Shown here: piece after piece, positions 34,646 to 40,986 of the stretch
How the letters are laid out: each line of letters begins with the position of its first letter
How positions within the stretch are numbered: the first letter of the stretch is position 1
Origin: Solicoccozyma terricola
Lineage: Eukaryota; Basidiomycota; Tremellomycetes; Filobasidiales; Piskurozymaceae
Assembly: GCA_001600875.1 (NCBI GenBank)
Contig: BCLD01000027.1
Coordinates: forward strand, 158,640 to 222,639
Direction: 5' to 3'
DNA: 64,000 nt
Translations under genes and position numbers: made by a program
The notes under the pieces: generated by a model
The model's database searches: none
Told to the model about the DNA's origin: nothing
What the model saw: only the letters and a program-made list of their open reading frames with translations

Positions 34646-34829
34646 GTTGGGGCGAGAGGGAGAACGGTGCTGGTGCTGGTGATGGTGCTGGCGGTGTTCG
34701 ATGGTGATATACTATGTTCCGTTGGTTCAACTGTCAAAGCCTGGCGCGTGCGTGTCGTCATTTTTGACACGTCATCACAGAAAATCATTCGCCACCCGCC
34801 GGTGGCGGCCAGGATCCCATTCGTAGCGT

Positions 34830-34950
34830 TGTGCACGCGGTGCGGTTCTCACGGTGGCCTGATGCACCTTAGCTTTGTTGATCGCTTTGTAGCCTCTTTA
34901 GACTGATGACAGACACACATACATCTCCGTCCCGAGCCCCTGCCTGTTCA
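34830..34950 (+). repeat. 5' LTR of the retrotransposon
   Basis: 121 bases, starts TGTGCACGCGG and ends CCTGTTCA. Base-for-base identical to the 3' copy. Unusually short for a gypsy-type LTR. An ATG at 34906 within it is in frame with gag but is unlikely to be the translation start. Confidence 0.95.
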
Positions 34951-34968
34951 TGGCGACCAGACCGACGA
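34951..34968 (+). other. Primer-binding site of the retrotransposon
   Basis: Starts TGGCGACCAGACC directly after the 5' LTR. TGG pairs with the CCA end of a tRNA. The following bases run on to GATTTGAAC, whose complement GTTCAAATC looks like a tRNA T-loop, suggesting extended tRNA similarity; the tRNA identity is not resolved. Confidence 0.7.
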
Positions 34969-34989
34969 TTTGAACATCCCAAACGTTAC

Positions 34990-35523
34990 ATGTCCATCAC
35001 CCTCCCTCCAAGGCAACAACAACTGTCTTTAGTGGACGTTTGCGAGGCCACGCTCGATCAATCAGCCCCCCGACACGCGATCATCGCGTTCGACCGCAAG
35101 CTCCACCTCTACAAGATCCTCCGTTCCAATCCTCTGGACCGCAACGACCTGATCCTCCTCGCCTTCGAAGGCACCGTCCTTCACACCGCCAACCGCTTTC
35201 TCGGTACCTCATTTGACAATCCTGGGTCGGCGGACGTCATCATCACCCTCCTATCCCAGCACGAGGCCGATATCTGGACCGCCTACCGTGCCGGAATATT
35301 CTCTTCTCACGGTGACCACTCCACTCGTACAACTACATCCGGAAACACGGCTCGCCTGATCGACCGCCTCACCCCGCGAGTTCCTTCCAGTACACCGAGA
35401 CCCACTCTGCTCTCCCGCTTGGGACCCCAAGCCCGCCAATGGATCTCCGACCACGCTCTACAGATCTACAGACCTACGGAAACAGACCCTGCGAGAAGTA
35501 TATGGCCACTAGATCGACCCTAG
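34990..35523 (+). CDS. Retrotransposon gag N-terminal frame (ORF A)
   Basis: 177 codons from the first ATG after the primer-binding site to a TAG. The product starts MSITLPPRQQQLSLVDVCEATLDQ and has no motif I recognise. It overlaps the next gag frame (open from 35316), which is in -1 register. Codon use and protein-like composition continue until about RPTETDP, and the next frame looks protein-like from about KYMATRSTLDLTTIK, so the natural product may be a single Gag made by a shift near 35,500, or this copy may carry a one-base indel. No canonical slippery heptamer is visible in the overlap. Confidence 0.6.
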   Translation: MSITLPPRQQQLSLVDVCEATLDQSAPRHAIIAFDRKLHLYKILRSNPLDRNDLILLAFEGTVLHTANRFLGTSFDNPGSADVIITLLSQHEADIWTAYRAGIFSSHGDHSTRTTTSGNTARLIDRLTPRVPSSTPRPTLLSRLGPQARQWISDHALQIYRPTETDPARSIWPLDRP

Positions 35524-36833
35524 ACCTAACCACGATCAAGCTCCACGAACTAGGTATTCAACCGAAGCGCGCCCGATCTCTTCCCAACAACGGTGATACC
35601 CTCTCGTCCCCGCTCACCCCAACAAATACTACCTCACGATCCCCACCCGCACCTCAACCGAAAGCGATCAACATGTCCCCACAAGCGATCCCGAGATTCA
35701 CGGGAAGGAACGACAAGGACTGGCTTGAATCGTTCGACATCGCCATGATGGACCGAGATCTCGAGGACAAAGACCCTAAGATATGCCGTTACTTCGAAAA
35801 ATCGATGGCTAAGGACACACCCGCTCATGCGTGGTTTACCGCCCTACCCGAAGCTACCAAAAAGAACTACACCGATCTCAAAGCAGCGTGGACAGACCAA
35901 TACGACCGACCCGATCCCAATAAGATCGAACGACACATGATCAATTTCTCTGCTCTCCGCTTGCTCGACGCCGACGTCGGCGCTCATGACCGCACCACTG
36001 GTCGTGCCCGACACATCATCTTCGCGGACTCCGCCGATGACTTGGCAGCGCAAATACCAGAGACACTCCTACCAGCACCAACTAGAGTCAGAGACATCCT
36101 CAGGCAGGTCGGACCCTCTCTTCGCAAGTTCCTCAATCACAAGGACATGAAAGACAAGGAATTCCACGACATCACAAAGACAATCCGCGACTTGACGACT
36201 GAGGATATTGAGGAGATCTTAGAACCGGTTCGCGTGCAGTTGCAGTTACAACAGCTTCGACAAAGCACTCAAGCTCAGCCGTATGCTCCCAACCAAGCTC
36301 TACCGCCGCGACAACCCTTCACACAGCAGCCAGTTCCCCCCAACGTTAACAACGCTCCTGCTCCCGCGCCCGCGCCATACATGTCTCGACCCCCCCAGTA
36401 CATCGCCGACCCCCAGCACAGGGCAGCGATTCAAGCTTGGGACGACAAGTATGGTGCTCACACAGAGCCCACCGTCGAAACCGGCTACCCTCTCACGCCC
36501 AATACCGCGCCACCAGCCACGGGCGAATGCTTTAGGTGTGGCCATCAGGGCCATCGTCGCAAAGACTGTCACGGCACCCCGATCCCGCAAAAAGAAGGCA
36601 ATTATAGGTTCGCCCTTTTCGTCTCCAAGTCCTCCATGTCAAAGCCGCCGGCTCCACCCTCGACCCCGGCGTCCAATTCTAACACGATCGCAATCCCGTT
36701 ACGAATGATACACCACCAGGAAGAGACGCAGGGCCCCCCGGAAAGTCCACAACCCGAAGCAGTCAAGGAAGATTTAAGTTACCTCGATAACCCATTCCTC
36801 TGCCAGGGAAAAGACAACGGGTATCAGCTTTGA
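35439..36833 (+). CDS. Retrotransposon Gag with CCHC zinc knuckle
   Basis: First ATG at 35439; the frame is open from 35316. Capsid-like region around IPRFTGRNDKDWLESFDIAMMDRDLEDKDPK and AWFTALPEATKKNYTDLKAAWTDQY, typical of retrotransposon gag. A Pro/Gln-rich linker is followed by a CX2CX4HX4C knuckle (CFRCGHQGHRRKDC, about 36,528-36,570). Terminates at TGA 36831-36833, inside the frameshift hairpin loop. Pol follows in the -1 frame. Confidence 0.9.
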   Translation: MDLRPRSTDLQTYGNRPCEKYMATRSTLDLTTIKLHELGIQPKRARSLPNNGDTLSSPLTPTNTTSRSPPAPQPKAINMSPQAIPRFTGRNDKDWLESFDIAMMDRDLEDKDPKICRYFEKSMAKDTPAHAWFTALPEATKKNYTDLKAAWTDQYDRPDPNKIERHMINFSALRLLDADVGAHDRTTGRARHIIFADSADDLAAQIPETLLPAPTRVRDILRQVGPSLRKFLNHKDMKDKEFHDITKTIRDLTTEDIEEILEPVRVQLQLQQLRQSTQAQPYAPNQALPPRQPFTQQPVPPNVNNAPAPAPAPYMSRPPQYIADPQHRAAIQAWDDKYGAHTEPTVETGYPLTPNTAPPATGECFRCGHQGHRRKDCHGTPIPQKEGNYRFALFVSKSSMSKPPAPPSTPASNSNTIAIPLRMIHHQEETQGPPESPQPEAVKEDLSYLDNPFLCQGKDNGYQL

Positions 36834-39800
36834 GGATGGCTGATATCCAGACAATCGAACCTCCTCCCAAACCTCCCGACCCGGCCCCCAATCATCCGAC
36901 GACTCCACAATTTACCCACTCAGATCAGAAAATTACCTTTACCGAGCTTTACCCCGAGAATACCTCGTCGCTCCACCTACCCTTCGCTCTTCAGCATAAA
37001 TTGCACAAGAACTCCAAGACATTCGATGCTGGCGAAGCGCTATACGTGGACGACGGAGCGATGATGAACGTCATCGATTGGGCTTTCTACGGCGCATACG
37101 AGCACATCATCGGACCCCTCTCCCCGTCACCCACCGTCGTCCGTTTAGCCGATGGAACTGTCAGACCATCCAAGGGAACCACAACACTCGAGGTCACCCT
37201 CACTCAAGGAACCAACGAAATCCGGTCGATCGCTACGTTTGACGTCCTGCCCTCTGCCGACACCTGGAATATTCTCCTCGGCCTACCTTGGCTCCGACAG
37301 GTGAAAGGCATACACAACTACGACACCAATCGAATTCAGATTAAGTGTGGTGACGAGTGGTGTTCCTTTAAGTCTTTGCTCGACCGTCGTCAAAGGCCCG
37401 AGCGAACTCTCTGGCTCGCCCAAATAGCCGATGACGTCGACCGAGCCTCTCTACCATGCCCCGAACGTATCTGGGACGCGGTCTCCAAGGGCACCTCCAT
37501 CACGGCCCGCCAACGCCGCCAGCTACAGAACTTGGTCATGGAGTACCACCACGTCTGGGCCGAGTCTATGGACGACATTAAGGAAACAACGTGCGGTGTC
37601 CACCGCCTCACTATCGATCCATCCGTCAAACTCAGTACGAACGCTATCACCCGCCGCATGACCCCGCCGATGATTCAGGGCCTCCACGCTCAAGTCGACC
37701 AATTGCAGCACGCTGGCATCATCAGCCCTATCTCCCCTCCAGATGTAAGATGCTGCTCCGCCGTCGTAATGGCGCCAAAGGCCGGCTCCGCGATCCCGGC
37801 TACGAGGGAAGCCGTCGTCGAGTTGGCCAAACAAGCGTTGACACACCCATCGTCCGTCGTTCGAACCACCCCGCCCATAGGCCCGCTCAAGTATCGAATG
37901 TGTCACGATTTTCGACCTCTAAACGCCGCCACTATCGTCCCCGCCTTCCTCCCCGGAAATCTCGAGGCTATTTTGGGACGTCATAGCGGGAAGACTTACC
38001 TTAGTGTCCTCGATCTCATGGGCGCCTTTTACGCCTACCCTCTCGACAAGGCAGCCAGGCCGTATACATCGTTCTTCGTCCCAGGCCGTGGCTTCCTCGC
38101 CTACAATCGTATGCCCATGGGCCTCACGGGGGCCCCCGCCACGGCACAGATCGGTATGGCGACGGCGTTCAAGGACGTCATCCACCCGGGGCCCGTCGAC
38201 TACTGGATGGACGACATGGTACTAAGCTCTAATGAGTTCGACACAGGATTGGACGACCTCCGGCGCTTACTTCATCTCGCGGACAAAGCCAAGCTCATGT
38301 TTTCACCGACGAAGACTAAGCTTTTCGTTTCCGAGGCTGCCTTGGGTGGCCAAGTCGTCGGTGCCAAGGGCGTCTCTCCGGACCCCACGAAAGTCGATGC
38401 TATACTCCGTTGGCCCACGCCGACGAATGCGCTCGAGGTTCTATCGTTCGTGAACACATGCGGATTTTATCGGTCCATGGTCCCGAACTTCAGCATCATC
38501 GCATACCCTCTCACCGAACTCTTTCGCCTTCCCCAGCGGGGCGATCCTTCCAGGGGTGCGTACCGACGAGCGTTAGAACGGAAAGACGTCCGACCCCTTT
38601 GGACAGAAGAACACGCGACCGCCATGGCCACCCTGCAACAAGCCCTCGCCGCTTTCCCAGTGATCCGCGATCCAGTCTACACTATCCCGCCCACTCCCTT
38701 TCATATCGCCATTGACGCTTCTGCGAAGGGATTCGGCGCGGAGCTCTTCCAGGAGGTAGACGACGAGAGGAAGACCATCATGTTCGCGAGCAAGAAGACC
38801 ACCACGGGGGAACGGACCAAACATTCCTATATGTTAGAGCTAGCTGCGTTGAAGTGGTCTCTTGACAAGTTCGACGAGTATACCCATGGCCAGCCCATCA
38901 TCGTGTATACAGACTGCATTGCCGTCAAGGGGCTCCTCAACAAACCGACCATATCCGGAGTCCAGGCGCGCTGGAAAGAGGCCGTCAACGCTCACTACAT
39001 CGTCCATTTGGTCCACAAGCCTGGCAAGGACAACGTCATCGCCGACGCCCTCAGCCGCAACCCAGCCCCGGACCCCGCCGGCGAGCAAGAAACGACCGAT
39101 GACCCAATGCAGTCGAAAGGCCTCCTTGTGGCTTGCCGCCGCCTCGCCTTGGATGAGAACATGGGCCTCCGCACACGCTTCCGAGGAGACACATTCGCAG
39201 CGGTCGTCGATTACCTCACCGGGTTCTTCCCGTCCGACGAAGACGGGGTCGCCCGCAAGTCTTCCTCGTACTGGATCGACGCCGGCAAGTTGTGGACCAT
39301 GTCCAGCGCTACGGGTAAGACCTTGGAGGTTCTCCCGGCGAGGGAGGGCCTACTGTTCGCAAAACACTACCACGAAACTACGGGCCACTTTGGACGAGAC
39401 ATCTGCATTCGCGGCATCACGAGGACCTACATATGGCCAAAGCTCCGTGTTCACGTCGAGAAAGTCATCAAGGAATGCGAACGCTGCTTACCATTCGGCC
39501 CCAAACTACAACGCACCCTCCTCCGCCACGTCACTCGCTTCCGCACGTTCGAAACGATCGCCCTAGATTACTTGTCGATGCCCAAAGCCAACACCGGCGC
39601 GATCTCCATCCTCGTCGCCATCGACATATACTCGAAGTTCATCTGGGCGTGGCCCCTCAACGAGGTCGGTAGTGGCGACACCACCATCGCAGCTCTCGAG
39701 GACCTCCGTCAACTCTACACTCTACCCCGTGCAATCTACGTCGACAACGGCCGTGCATTTGCGAACCACAAAGTCGCCGATTACCTCGATAAGCATCACG

Positions 39801-40366
39801 TCGAAATCATCAACGCCTCCGGATATAGTCACGTGGGCGCCGTCGAATCCGCCAACCATCTCGTTCTCGACCGTTTGCGACACCTCGTTCACGATCCACA
39901 GAGCGAGCAACTTCCGGGAGAGCCAACTGGTCCAAAGACATGGCCCTCGAGGCTCAAGGACGCCGTCGCAGTCCTGAACGACCGTGTCATTCACCACCTG
40001 GCCGAATACACCCCTCGCGAGGTCATGTTCGGAATCCCCCCGACCAAAGTAGCGCAGGCTCCCGAGAATGTACAGCAAACTCAGCTCGAACGCCAACTTC
40101 GCTCCCTCGACATCGGTGCGAGCGGAAAGACGTACACGGAGATCATCCCCCAGCGCTTCAAGATTGGAGACATGGTCATGCGGTATGACGGCACTCTCGA
40201 CAACACGCACTCGGTCAATCGAAAGCTCAAGGTCAAGTGGCAGGGACCTTTCATCGTCACTACCCTCACACGCTCAGCAGCCACTCTTCAGCTCCCCGAC
40301 GGCACACCGATCCGAGGAACCTGCGCCCAACAACGCTTAAAGAAATATGAAGGCTGGTCTTCCTGA
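36791..40366 (+). CDS. Retrotransposon Pol (protease, RT, RNase H, integrase)
   Basis: Open in the -1 frame from 36791 with no stop to 40364-40366; likely made as Gag-Pol by frameshifting (first ATG in frame at 36836). Residues below count from 36830. Protease near residue 75 with YVDDGAMMNVID, so the usual D-S/T-G is D-D-G, and ILLGLPWLR. RT about 270-560: MCHDFRPLNAAT, LSVLDLMGAFYAYPLD, NRMPMGLTGAPATAQ and catalytic YWMDD (about 458). RNase H about 620-760: AIDASAKGFGAE, LELAALKW, YTDCIAVKGL, NVIADALSR. Integrase from about 845: HYHETTGHFGRD...CERC zinc finger, then D (ALDYLS), D (VDNGRAF) and E (GAVESAN) with 33 residues between the last two. GPF-type end: LKVKWQGPFIVTTL. Divergent: the usual YHPQTDGQ(T/S)E integrase motif is absent. 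Confidence 0.92.
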   Translation, partial: PIPLPGKRQRVSALRMADIQTIEPPPKPPDPAPNHPTTPQFTHSDQKITFTELYPENTSSLHLPFALQHKLHKNSKTFDAGEALYVDDGAMMNVIDWAFYGAYEHIIGPLSPSPTVVRLADGTVRPSKGTTTLEVTLTQGTNEIRSIATFDVLPSADTWNILLGLPWLRQVKGIHNYDTNRIQIKCGDEWCSFKSLLDRRQRPERTLWLAQIADDVDRASLPCPERIWDAVSKGTSITARQRRQLQNLVMEYHHVWAESMDDIKETTCGVHRLTIDPSVKLSTNAITRRMTPPMIQGLHAQVDQLQHAGIISPISPPDVRCCSAVVMAPKAGSAIPATREAVVELAKQALTHPSSVVRTTPPIGPLKYRMCHDFRPLNAATIVPAFLPGNLEAILGRHSGKTYLSVLDLMGAFYAYPLDKAARPYTSFFVPGRGFLAYNRMPMGLTGAPATAQIGMATAFKDVIHPGPVDYWMDDMVLSSNEFDTGLDDLRRLLHLADKAKLMFSPTKTKLFVSEAALGGQVVGAKGVSPDPTKVDAILRWPTPTNALEVLSFVNTCGFYRSMVPNFSIIAYPLTELFRLPQRGDPSRGAYRRALERKDVRPLWTEEHATAMATLQQALAAFPVIRDPVYTIPPTPFHIAIDASAKGFGAELFQEVDDERKTIMFASKKTTTGERTKHSYMLELAALKWSLDKFDEYTHGQPIIVYTDCIAVKGLLNKPTISGVQARWKEAVNAHYIVHLVHKPGKDNVIADALSRNPAPDPAGEQETTDDPMQSKGLLVACRRLALDENMGLRTRFRGDTFAAVVDYLTGFFPSDEDGVARKSSSYWIDAGKLWTMSSATGKTLEVLPAREGLLFAKHYHETTGHFGRDICIRGITRTYIWPKLRVHVEKVIKECERCLPFGPKLQRTLLRHVTRFRTFETIALDYLSMPKANTGAISILVAIDIYSKFIWAWPLNEVGSGDTTIAALEDLRQLYTLPRAIYVDNGRAFANHKVADYLDKHHVEIINASGYSHVGAVESANHLVLDRLRHLVHDPQSEQLPGEPTGPKTWPSRLKDAVAVLNDRVIHHLAEYTPREVMFGIPPTKVAQAPENVQQTQLERQLRSLDIGASGKTYTEIIPQRFKIGDMVMRYDGTLDNTHSVNRKLKVKWQGPFIVTTLTRSAATLQLPDGTPIRGTCAQQRLKKYEGWSS
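36806..36848 (+). promoter_or_regulatory. Programmed -1 ribosomal frameshift signal (gag-pol)
   Basis: Heptamer GGGAAAA at 36806-36812, positioned in the gag frame as G GGA AAA, i.e. X XXY YYZ. Six-base spacer GACAAC. Then a 10-base-pair stem: 36819-36828 (GGGTATCAGC) with 36839-36848 (GCTGATATCC), nine Watson-Crick pairs and one G-U, with a 10-base loop containing the gag TGA. The pol frame is open from 36791, so the shift lies inside the 43-base overlap, and decoding after the slip gives ...QGKRQRVSALRMADIQ without a stop. Confidence 0.85.
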
Positions 40367-40502
40367 TTCCGTAACGACCCCATACACTACCAACGACTCC
40401 GTAACGACCCCCACGCCTACCTATAATCTGTGCTTCCCGACTCAACTCTACATACGCCCACCCTTTCCCTTCGTCGCTCCACTACGTTTCGCTCTTTTCA
40501 GC

Positions 40503-40509
40503 GTGGGGG
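40503..40509 (+). other. Polypurine tract of the retrotransposon
   Basis: GTGGGGG directly abuts the TG of the 3' LTR. It is short and contains one T, but its position is exactly that of a plus-strand primer. Confidence 0.55.
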
Positions 40510-40630
40510 TGTGCACGCGGTGCGGTTCTCACGGTGGCCTGATGCACCTTAGCTTTGTTGATCGCTTTGTAGCCTCTTTAGACTGATGACAGACACACAT
40601 ACATCTCCGTCCCGAGCCCCTGCCTGTTCA
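40510..40630 (+). repeat. 3' LTR of the retrotransposon
   Basis: 121 bases, identical to the 5' LTR. Followed by GCGT, repeating the four bases before the 5' LTR. Confidence 0.95.
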
Positions 40631-40986
40631 GCGTCCTCAGTGAGTGTGGTGCAAGGCTCGGCTAAGACCCTGCTAGGCTGATAGGGCTGGTACCGTGTCT
40701 GGAATGCAGCCTTCGAGCAGGTGTCGTCTATAATGCCCATTGTAACCTGTCCGCTTCTCTTCTCTGGAGGCCCATGGGAGTTTACCCTTTCCACCCACAG
40801 TTCAAATTCTCTGCATCCAGAGGTCAAAAACGCAGGTGAGGGTGACTTCCGACGTGAAAAGTTCGCTTCACCTTGCCTCGTCGCAATCGAGGAATCTGCT
40901 CTTATTTTGCGACCAAAGTCACGTTTCCTTGGTGGGGCTCCTCGGCTGTCGACTGGCAGCATCATGATTCACAATGATCGACCAGC
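40631..40986. other. 3' flank of the retrotransposon
   Basis: About 350 bases between the element and the HNH-like remnant. A frame reading ...FSGGPWEFTLSTHSSNSLHPEVKN and a GT-AG candidate after ...AAAACGCAG could be an upstream exon of that remnant, but nothing conserved is seen. Confidence 0.35.

Follow-up and report, generated by a model that had tools for sequence, protein, structure and literature searches.

A probable -1 frameshift signal at the gag-pol junction of a Ty3/gypsy-type retrotransposon from Solicoccozyma terricola

How does a retrotransposon whose pol frame is displaced from gag by one base produce a Gag-Pol protein? The question is raised by a Ty3/gypsy-type long terminal repeat (LTR) retrotransposon found at positions 34830-40630 of a 64,000-nucleotide (nt) stretch of Solicoccozyma terricola DNA (contig BCLD01000027.1, positions 158,640 to 222,639), which we refer to as the window. 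A first-pass annotation of the window had proposed a -1 frameshift signal at this junction. We examined the junction and compared it with those of other elements in the same genome (a 23.9-Mb assembly of 33 contigs). On the sequence evidence, -1 ribosomal frameshifting at the junction very probably yields Gag-Pol. The features of the junction are as follows.

36791..36833, plus strand: overlap of gag and pol, 43 nt, with pol in the -1 frame
36806..36812, plus strand: slippery heptamer G GGA AAA, in gag phase (codons GGA at 36807 and AAA at 36810)
36813..36818, plus strand: spacer GACAAC, 6 nt
36819..36848, plus strand: hairpin of 11 pairs (36819-36829 with 36838-36848) and an 8-nt loop
36836..36838, plus strand: pol-frame ATG, two bases past the gag stop, with A at -3 and G at +4; a possible reinitiation start

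Inspection of the gag frame revealed that it splits the heptamer exactly as the first-pass annotation had described, and the six-base spacer, the gag stop inside the hairpin loop and the opening of pol in -1 from 36791 were likewise all found. The 10-bp stem with one G-U pair that it had listed is present and is extended by a closing U.G to 11 pairs, formed between GGGTATCAGCT (36819-36829) and GGCTGATATCC (36838-36848), with the one G.U internal. The loop, TTGAGGAT (36830-36837), contains the gag stop TGA (36831-36833). The last upstream stop in the pol frame is TAA at 36788, and the frame is open from 36791 to a stop ending at 40366. The junction has the composition of a canonical eukaryotic -1 signal: an X XXY YYZ heptamer in the zero frame, a spacer within the range of 5 to 9 nt (here 6 nt), a stable downstream stem-loop and a downstream gene that is open in -1 across the site.

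On this basis, ribosomes translating gag would arrive at G GGA AAA with GGA and AAA in the P and A sites and would be held back by the hairpin of 11 bp that lies six bases further on. A fraction would slip back by one base, so that the tandem codons GGA AAA became GGG AAA; these ribosomes would no longer read the stop of gag in the loop and would continue into pol. The product would be a Gag-Pol fusion, made as a minority relative to Gag. We infer the slippage, its efficiency and the ratio of Gag to Gag-Pol; the anatomy of the junction is conserved in a second copy of the family and recurs on the same plan in three other families.

The first-pass annotation had suggested aligning other genomic copies. 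The only other junction of the family that we found, in a copy on contig C7 (called C7 here) whose gag is 53% identical, retains the heptamer, the spacer length, the position of the stop and a stem of 10 pairs. It reads CAG GGA AAA GCC AAC GGG TAT CAG CTC TAA GG ATG GCG GGT ACC C. The heptamer and 5' arm are identical to those of the window, and TAA stands at the position of the gag stop. Of three changes in the 3' arm, two keep their pairs (G.U to G-C and U-A to U.G) and one produces an A.G mismatch. The C7 pol is in the -1 frame and is open to the end of the stretch examined.

The junction also is conserved at silent positions. Where the window and C7 share a residue, the same codon is used at 7 of 8 positions from 36804 to the gag end, compared with 86 of 210 upstream of the overlap (Met and Trp excluded, two in-between codons uncounted; Fisher p 0.012, on a small sample). 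At the nucleotide level, 31 of the 34 nt starting at the heptamer are identical, a figure matched by only 7 of 3290 segments of that length across gag plus the initial 2 kb of pol. Five of the seven are the junction site, which thus ranks among the two best-conserved places of that length there. Past the heptamer, the -1 frame encodes RQRVSALRM in the window and SQRVSALRM in C7. Three bases differ between heptamer and ATG. Two of these (CTT TGA/CTC TAA) are silent in gag and in -1 alike, a pattern that fits translation of both frames before the AUG, and the third (GAC/GCC) alters a residue in both.

A search of the genome with PF17919 returned 15 places, 13 of them above the cut-off. Junctions were recognized in 11 copies belonging to four families, and in all 11 the gag heptamer is in phase, pol lies in -1 and the -1 frame is open across the heptamer. 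The proposal that the element makes Gag-Pol by -1 shifting is thereby strengthened, in that C7 and three other gypsy families show the same arrangement. Those three families, B to D, have the following junctions.

Family B (copies C10 and C16; L019, L058), minus strand: G GGA AAA, 5-nt spacer, bulged 10-pair stem formed by GGCACTCAGC with GCTGAG(C)TGCC
Family C (copies C1:1236k, C18, C2:253k, C21:238k and C2:142k; L030, L060-L062, L064/L032): A AAA AAT, 6-nt spacer
Family D (copies C1:1640k and C3:388k; L035, L066): A AAA AAA right before TAG, 7-nt spacer, 9-pair stem

In family B, the junction is conserved far better than its flanks between the two copies: of 42 mismatches among the 400 positions aligned, just 1 lies within the 64-nt signal, which runs from the heptamer up to a possible second stem (p 0.004). 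The stem of family C has 11 pairs with one bulge and holds the gag stop TAG in its loop (z = -2.3; 4 of 200 shuffles as good). One copy of this family, C2:142k, shows a two-sided A-U to G-C change in the stem, a result reached in 234 of 500 runs of a shuffle control in which two distinct rows are too few to judge by. Three of the family C copies are broken, as judged from a pol frame that closes 57 or 105 nt after the heptamer start (C2:253k and C21:238k, 2 of the 11 copies) or from a gag that lies in two frames further upstream (C2:142k). Families C and D group together in a reverse transcriptase (RT) tree, so the independent lineages may number three rather than four.

Other elements of the genome are organized differently. 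Gag and pol share one frame through gag in C2a (1893 amino acids [aa]), C22 and C21:38k, the last two with a frame change within the RT region. C22 (L034 3546) has an in-phase GGGAAAA near the gag end of its fused frame, without an unbroken stem at 5 to 9 nt. No junction was seen in copies C12, C24, C26, C23, C13, C3:351k, C2:150k and C2:566k, which were left uncounted, and none of nine query pieces gave a match to C2:320k at 1e-5.

In order to gauge chance, heptamers were defined as XXX followed by AAA or TTT and ending in A, C or T. Eight in-phase heptamers occur in the 7174 codons of nine element reading frames, and three of the eight are the junction sites themselves; chance alone would therefore put about 0.01 of them in the 14-codon overlap. 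An uninterrupted stem of no fewer than 11 pairs that starts 5 to 9 nt downstream and has a loop of 3 to 15 was found at 135 of 127,601 background positions (window, both strands). The product of the two rates is about 1e-5, a rough guide only, as the heptamer and stem criteria were fixed after the site had been seen. The 50-nt fold (-17.6 kcal/mol, z = -3.7) was equaled by 0 of 200 shuffles. The combination of features at the junction is beyond chance; the energy by itself is not. We rejected hairpin energy alone as evidence, because 147 of 1500 random window positions equal it.

The first-pass annotation also had suggested that the loop might pair with a CCTCC-rich sequence downstream. Pseudoknots are frequent in canonical -1 signals, though not required. 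In the window element a 5-bp loop pairing (GAGGA/TCCTC) is possible but finds no support, being no better than chance: when the 30 nt downstream were shuffled, 404 of 1000 sequences paired equally well. Essentially the same was seen for C7 (a 5-pair match in a different register, with 182 of 1000 shuffles as good when the loop was taken one base too long), for a possible 6-pair loop-to-downstream match in family B (240 of 1000) and for the candidates in family C (867 and 610 of 1000). The sole unusual case among the families is a 9-pair loop-to-downstream match in family D, with 22 of 1000 shuffles as good in each copy, and an H-type pseudoknot is possible there.

Several observations weigh against the frameshift interpretation. 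Apart from the ordinary energy of the window hairpin, an 80-nt fold of the junction is unremarkable (z = -1.0, 28 of 200 shuffles as good), and the C7 hairpin energy likewise is equaled at 400 of 1500 positions. Only two copies of the window element's family carry the junction, and in C7 one pair of the stem is broken, so that it scores no stem by the strict unbroken measure (loop up to 15). C7 also has a longer overlap, 250 nt, with a second, less classical in-phase heptamer, CCCTTTG. The family B copy C10 has no stem by the same strict measure, the minimum-energy fold of that family is a different structure no better than shuffles (z = 0.01), and the nested fold of family D is no better than shuffles either (z = -0.46). 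Some of the copies were retrieved by querying with junctions, which biases the sample toward conserved ones, and the comparison of junction DNA was confined to this genome. Finally, the well-placed AUG offers an alternative route to Pol.

That route, in which ribosomes would terminate at the gag TGA in the loop and restart at the AUG two bases on to make a free Pol (MADIQ...), has to be considered because of the position of this AUG, which the first-pass annotation had overlooked. The AUG lies two bases past TGA in the window and past TAA in C7, in both cases with A at -3 and G at +4, and thus has the start-near-stop arrangement. The related protein P0002 is annotated from MAG..., though gene callers favor ATG. 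There also is a precedent, in that the non-LTR element SART1 is described (PMC5972666) as restarting at an overlapping stop-start with structure downstream. However, termination-reinitiation leaves unexplained the in-phase heptamer and its 6-nt distance to the stem, and also the silent-position conservation before the stop and the conserved -1-frame peptide before the AUG. In the five copies of families B to D that were checked (C10, C1:1236k, C2:142k, C1:1640k and C3:388k), the nearest pol-frame AUG is at least 68 nt past the gag stop and there is none in the 60 nt before it, yet heptamer and structure are present. We regard reinitiation as the sole route as very unlikely. A combination of the two routes, in which one hairpin serves both a -1 slip to make Gag-Pol and a restart at the AUG to make free Pol, is a tentative idea that we consider unlikely, although less so. 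The AUG sits in the hairpin loop and 3' arm, and the idea stems from the block AGGATGGC, which is unchanged between the window and C7 although the adjoining upstream stop went from TGA to TAA, and from P0002, which also begins MAG. If it were true, fused and free Pol would be made from one RNA.

It also might be argued that the element is dead, with gag and pol thrown out of frame by mutation and the motif without a role. Single-frame gag-pol elements such as C2a do exist in the genome, so one ancestral frame is possible. Against this, the LTRs of the window element are identical and both frames are open, the far-diverged C7 has the same -1 arrangement, and the rough chance of heptamer plus stem, by its post hoc criteria, is about 1e-5; we consider such a coincidence extremely improbable. 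Splicing of the junction, or an mRNA of its own for pol, is unneeded, as both frames are open through the overlap, and is exceedingly unlikely in our estimation. We favor -1 frameshifting over termination-reinitiation, given that the five copies checked of families B to D lack a nearby AUG and that the heptamer is kept at silent positions. The persistence of heptamer and structure in copies without a near AUG suggests that frameshifting would be the plan common to the families.

The remaining features of the element, which we place in the Ty3/gypsy group (Metaviridae), are listed here.

34830..34950, plus strand: 5' LTR, 121 bp, same sequence as the 3' LTR, with GCGT (34826-34829) just before it
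35502..36833, plus strand: gag, 443 aa, stop TGA at 36831-36833; the MATRST start is kept in C7
36836..40366, plus strand: pol reading frame after the ATG, with a protease-like region carrying DDGA, then RT, RNase H and an integrase zinc finger and core
40510..40630, plus strand: 3' LTR, 121 bp, followed by GCGT (40631-40634)

The identical 121-bp repeats flanked on both sides by GCGT, as expected of LTRs with a target-site duplication, indicate that the insertion probably is young. An additional in-frame ATG lies upstream of the gag start, at 35439. Gag matched nothing in Pfam at E values up to 0.1; a CCHC zinc knuckle, CFRCGHQGHRRKDC, was read from its sequence. In pol, Pfam analysis revealed RVT_1, RT_RNaseH_2/RT_RNaseH, Integrase_H2C2 and rve, which is the Ty3/gypsy order, and matched no protease family. 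Retroelement aspartic proteases carry D[ST]GA; the window, C7 and P0002 have DDGA instead. The DDGA-bearing region is presumed to be the protease from its position ahead of RT. The placement of the element rests on the pol order and the LTRs, and the protease departs from it in one motif of one domain. This unusual active-site neighbor (window 36836-37400; L028, minus strand) also was read by eye in a fragment, C26. A tree built from 20 rows of RT pieces places the window element in one clade with C7, P0001 and, at a greater distance, P0003. This clade stands clear of every other row, those of the genome's other families among them.

The sequence just 3' of the 5' LTR (window 34951-34980), TGGCGACCAGACCGACGATTTGAAC, is for the most part also present in C7 and in a C13 remnant (L069 and L070) and resembles a primer-binding site in which the pairing is extended. 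A 22-base pattern from this presumed primer-binding region (up to 3 mismatches) matched only the window element, C7 and the C13 remnant, and these loci yielded no tRNA gene to go with it.

Relatives were sought outside the genome as well. Protein searches, each of which scored roughly 8000 candidates sharing the most words, so that relatives may be missed, returned P0001-P0014 for a 750-aa pol piece at E values up to 1e-10. For gag, only P0015 matched among the candidates scored. P0015 ends in DNPYLMSGNGRGYPQ, which aligns without gaps to DNPFLCQGKDNGYQL of the window; its terminal S-G-N is compatible with G GGA AAC and also with many other codings. In viral contigs, no relative was confirmed for a pol piece or for a junction pattern, the gag alignment giving 48 pattern matches and the pol alignment 37, none of them confirmed. 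The same was true of 26 pattern matches in bacterial and archaeal contigs.

The junction adds an example to a known mechanism of -1 recoding. The best-studied yeast elements, Ty1 and Ty3, use +1 shifts without such a heptamer and hairpin. A review (PMC5009743) reports that in a 2003 survey 28 of 51 animal elements had pol in -1, many with classical heptamers. It describes the Ty3 shift as mechanistically quite distinct and the use of +1 and -1 as less skewed in fungal LTR elements than in animal ones, so that -1 fungal elements are known as a kind. The window element, with its probable use of -1, has a counterpart among those fungal LTR retrotransposons. It shares with animal LTR retrotransposons and retroviruses that shift by -1 at X XXY YYZ the in-phase heptamer, short spacer, downstream structure, short overlap and placement of pol in -1. 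It differs from them in its apparently fungal host and in its structure, a simple hairpin whose loop contains the gag stop. The reinitiation systems of SART1, victoriviruses and hypoviruses are not known to have an in-phase slippery heptamer at the right distance. They resemble the window element in having stop and restart codons at or near one place, and an RNA structure is described at the restart site in SART1 and victoriviruses (PMC5972666). Unlike in SART1-type systems, the stop and AUG of the window are two bases apart and do not overlap. A literature search of titles and abstract openings named no such element, which is not a claim of its absence from print.

The junction represents a compact and clean natural -1 signal in an element whose host apparently is a fungus, and the junctions described here provide a ready panel for measuring the response of fungal ribosomes to such signals. 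The AUG beside the gag stop raises the possibility that two routes to Pol meet at one hairpin.

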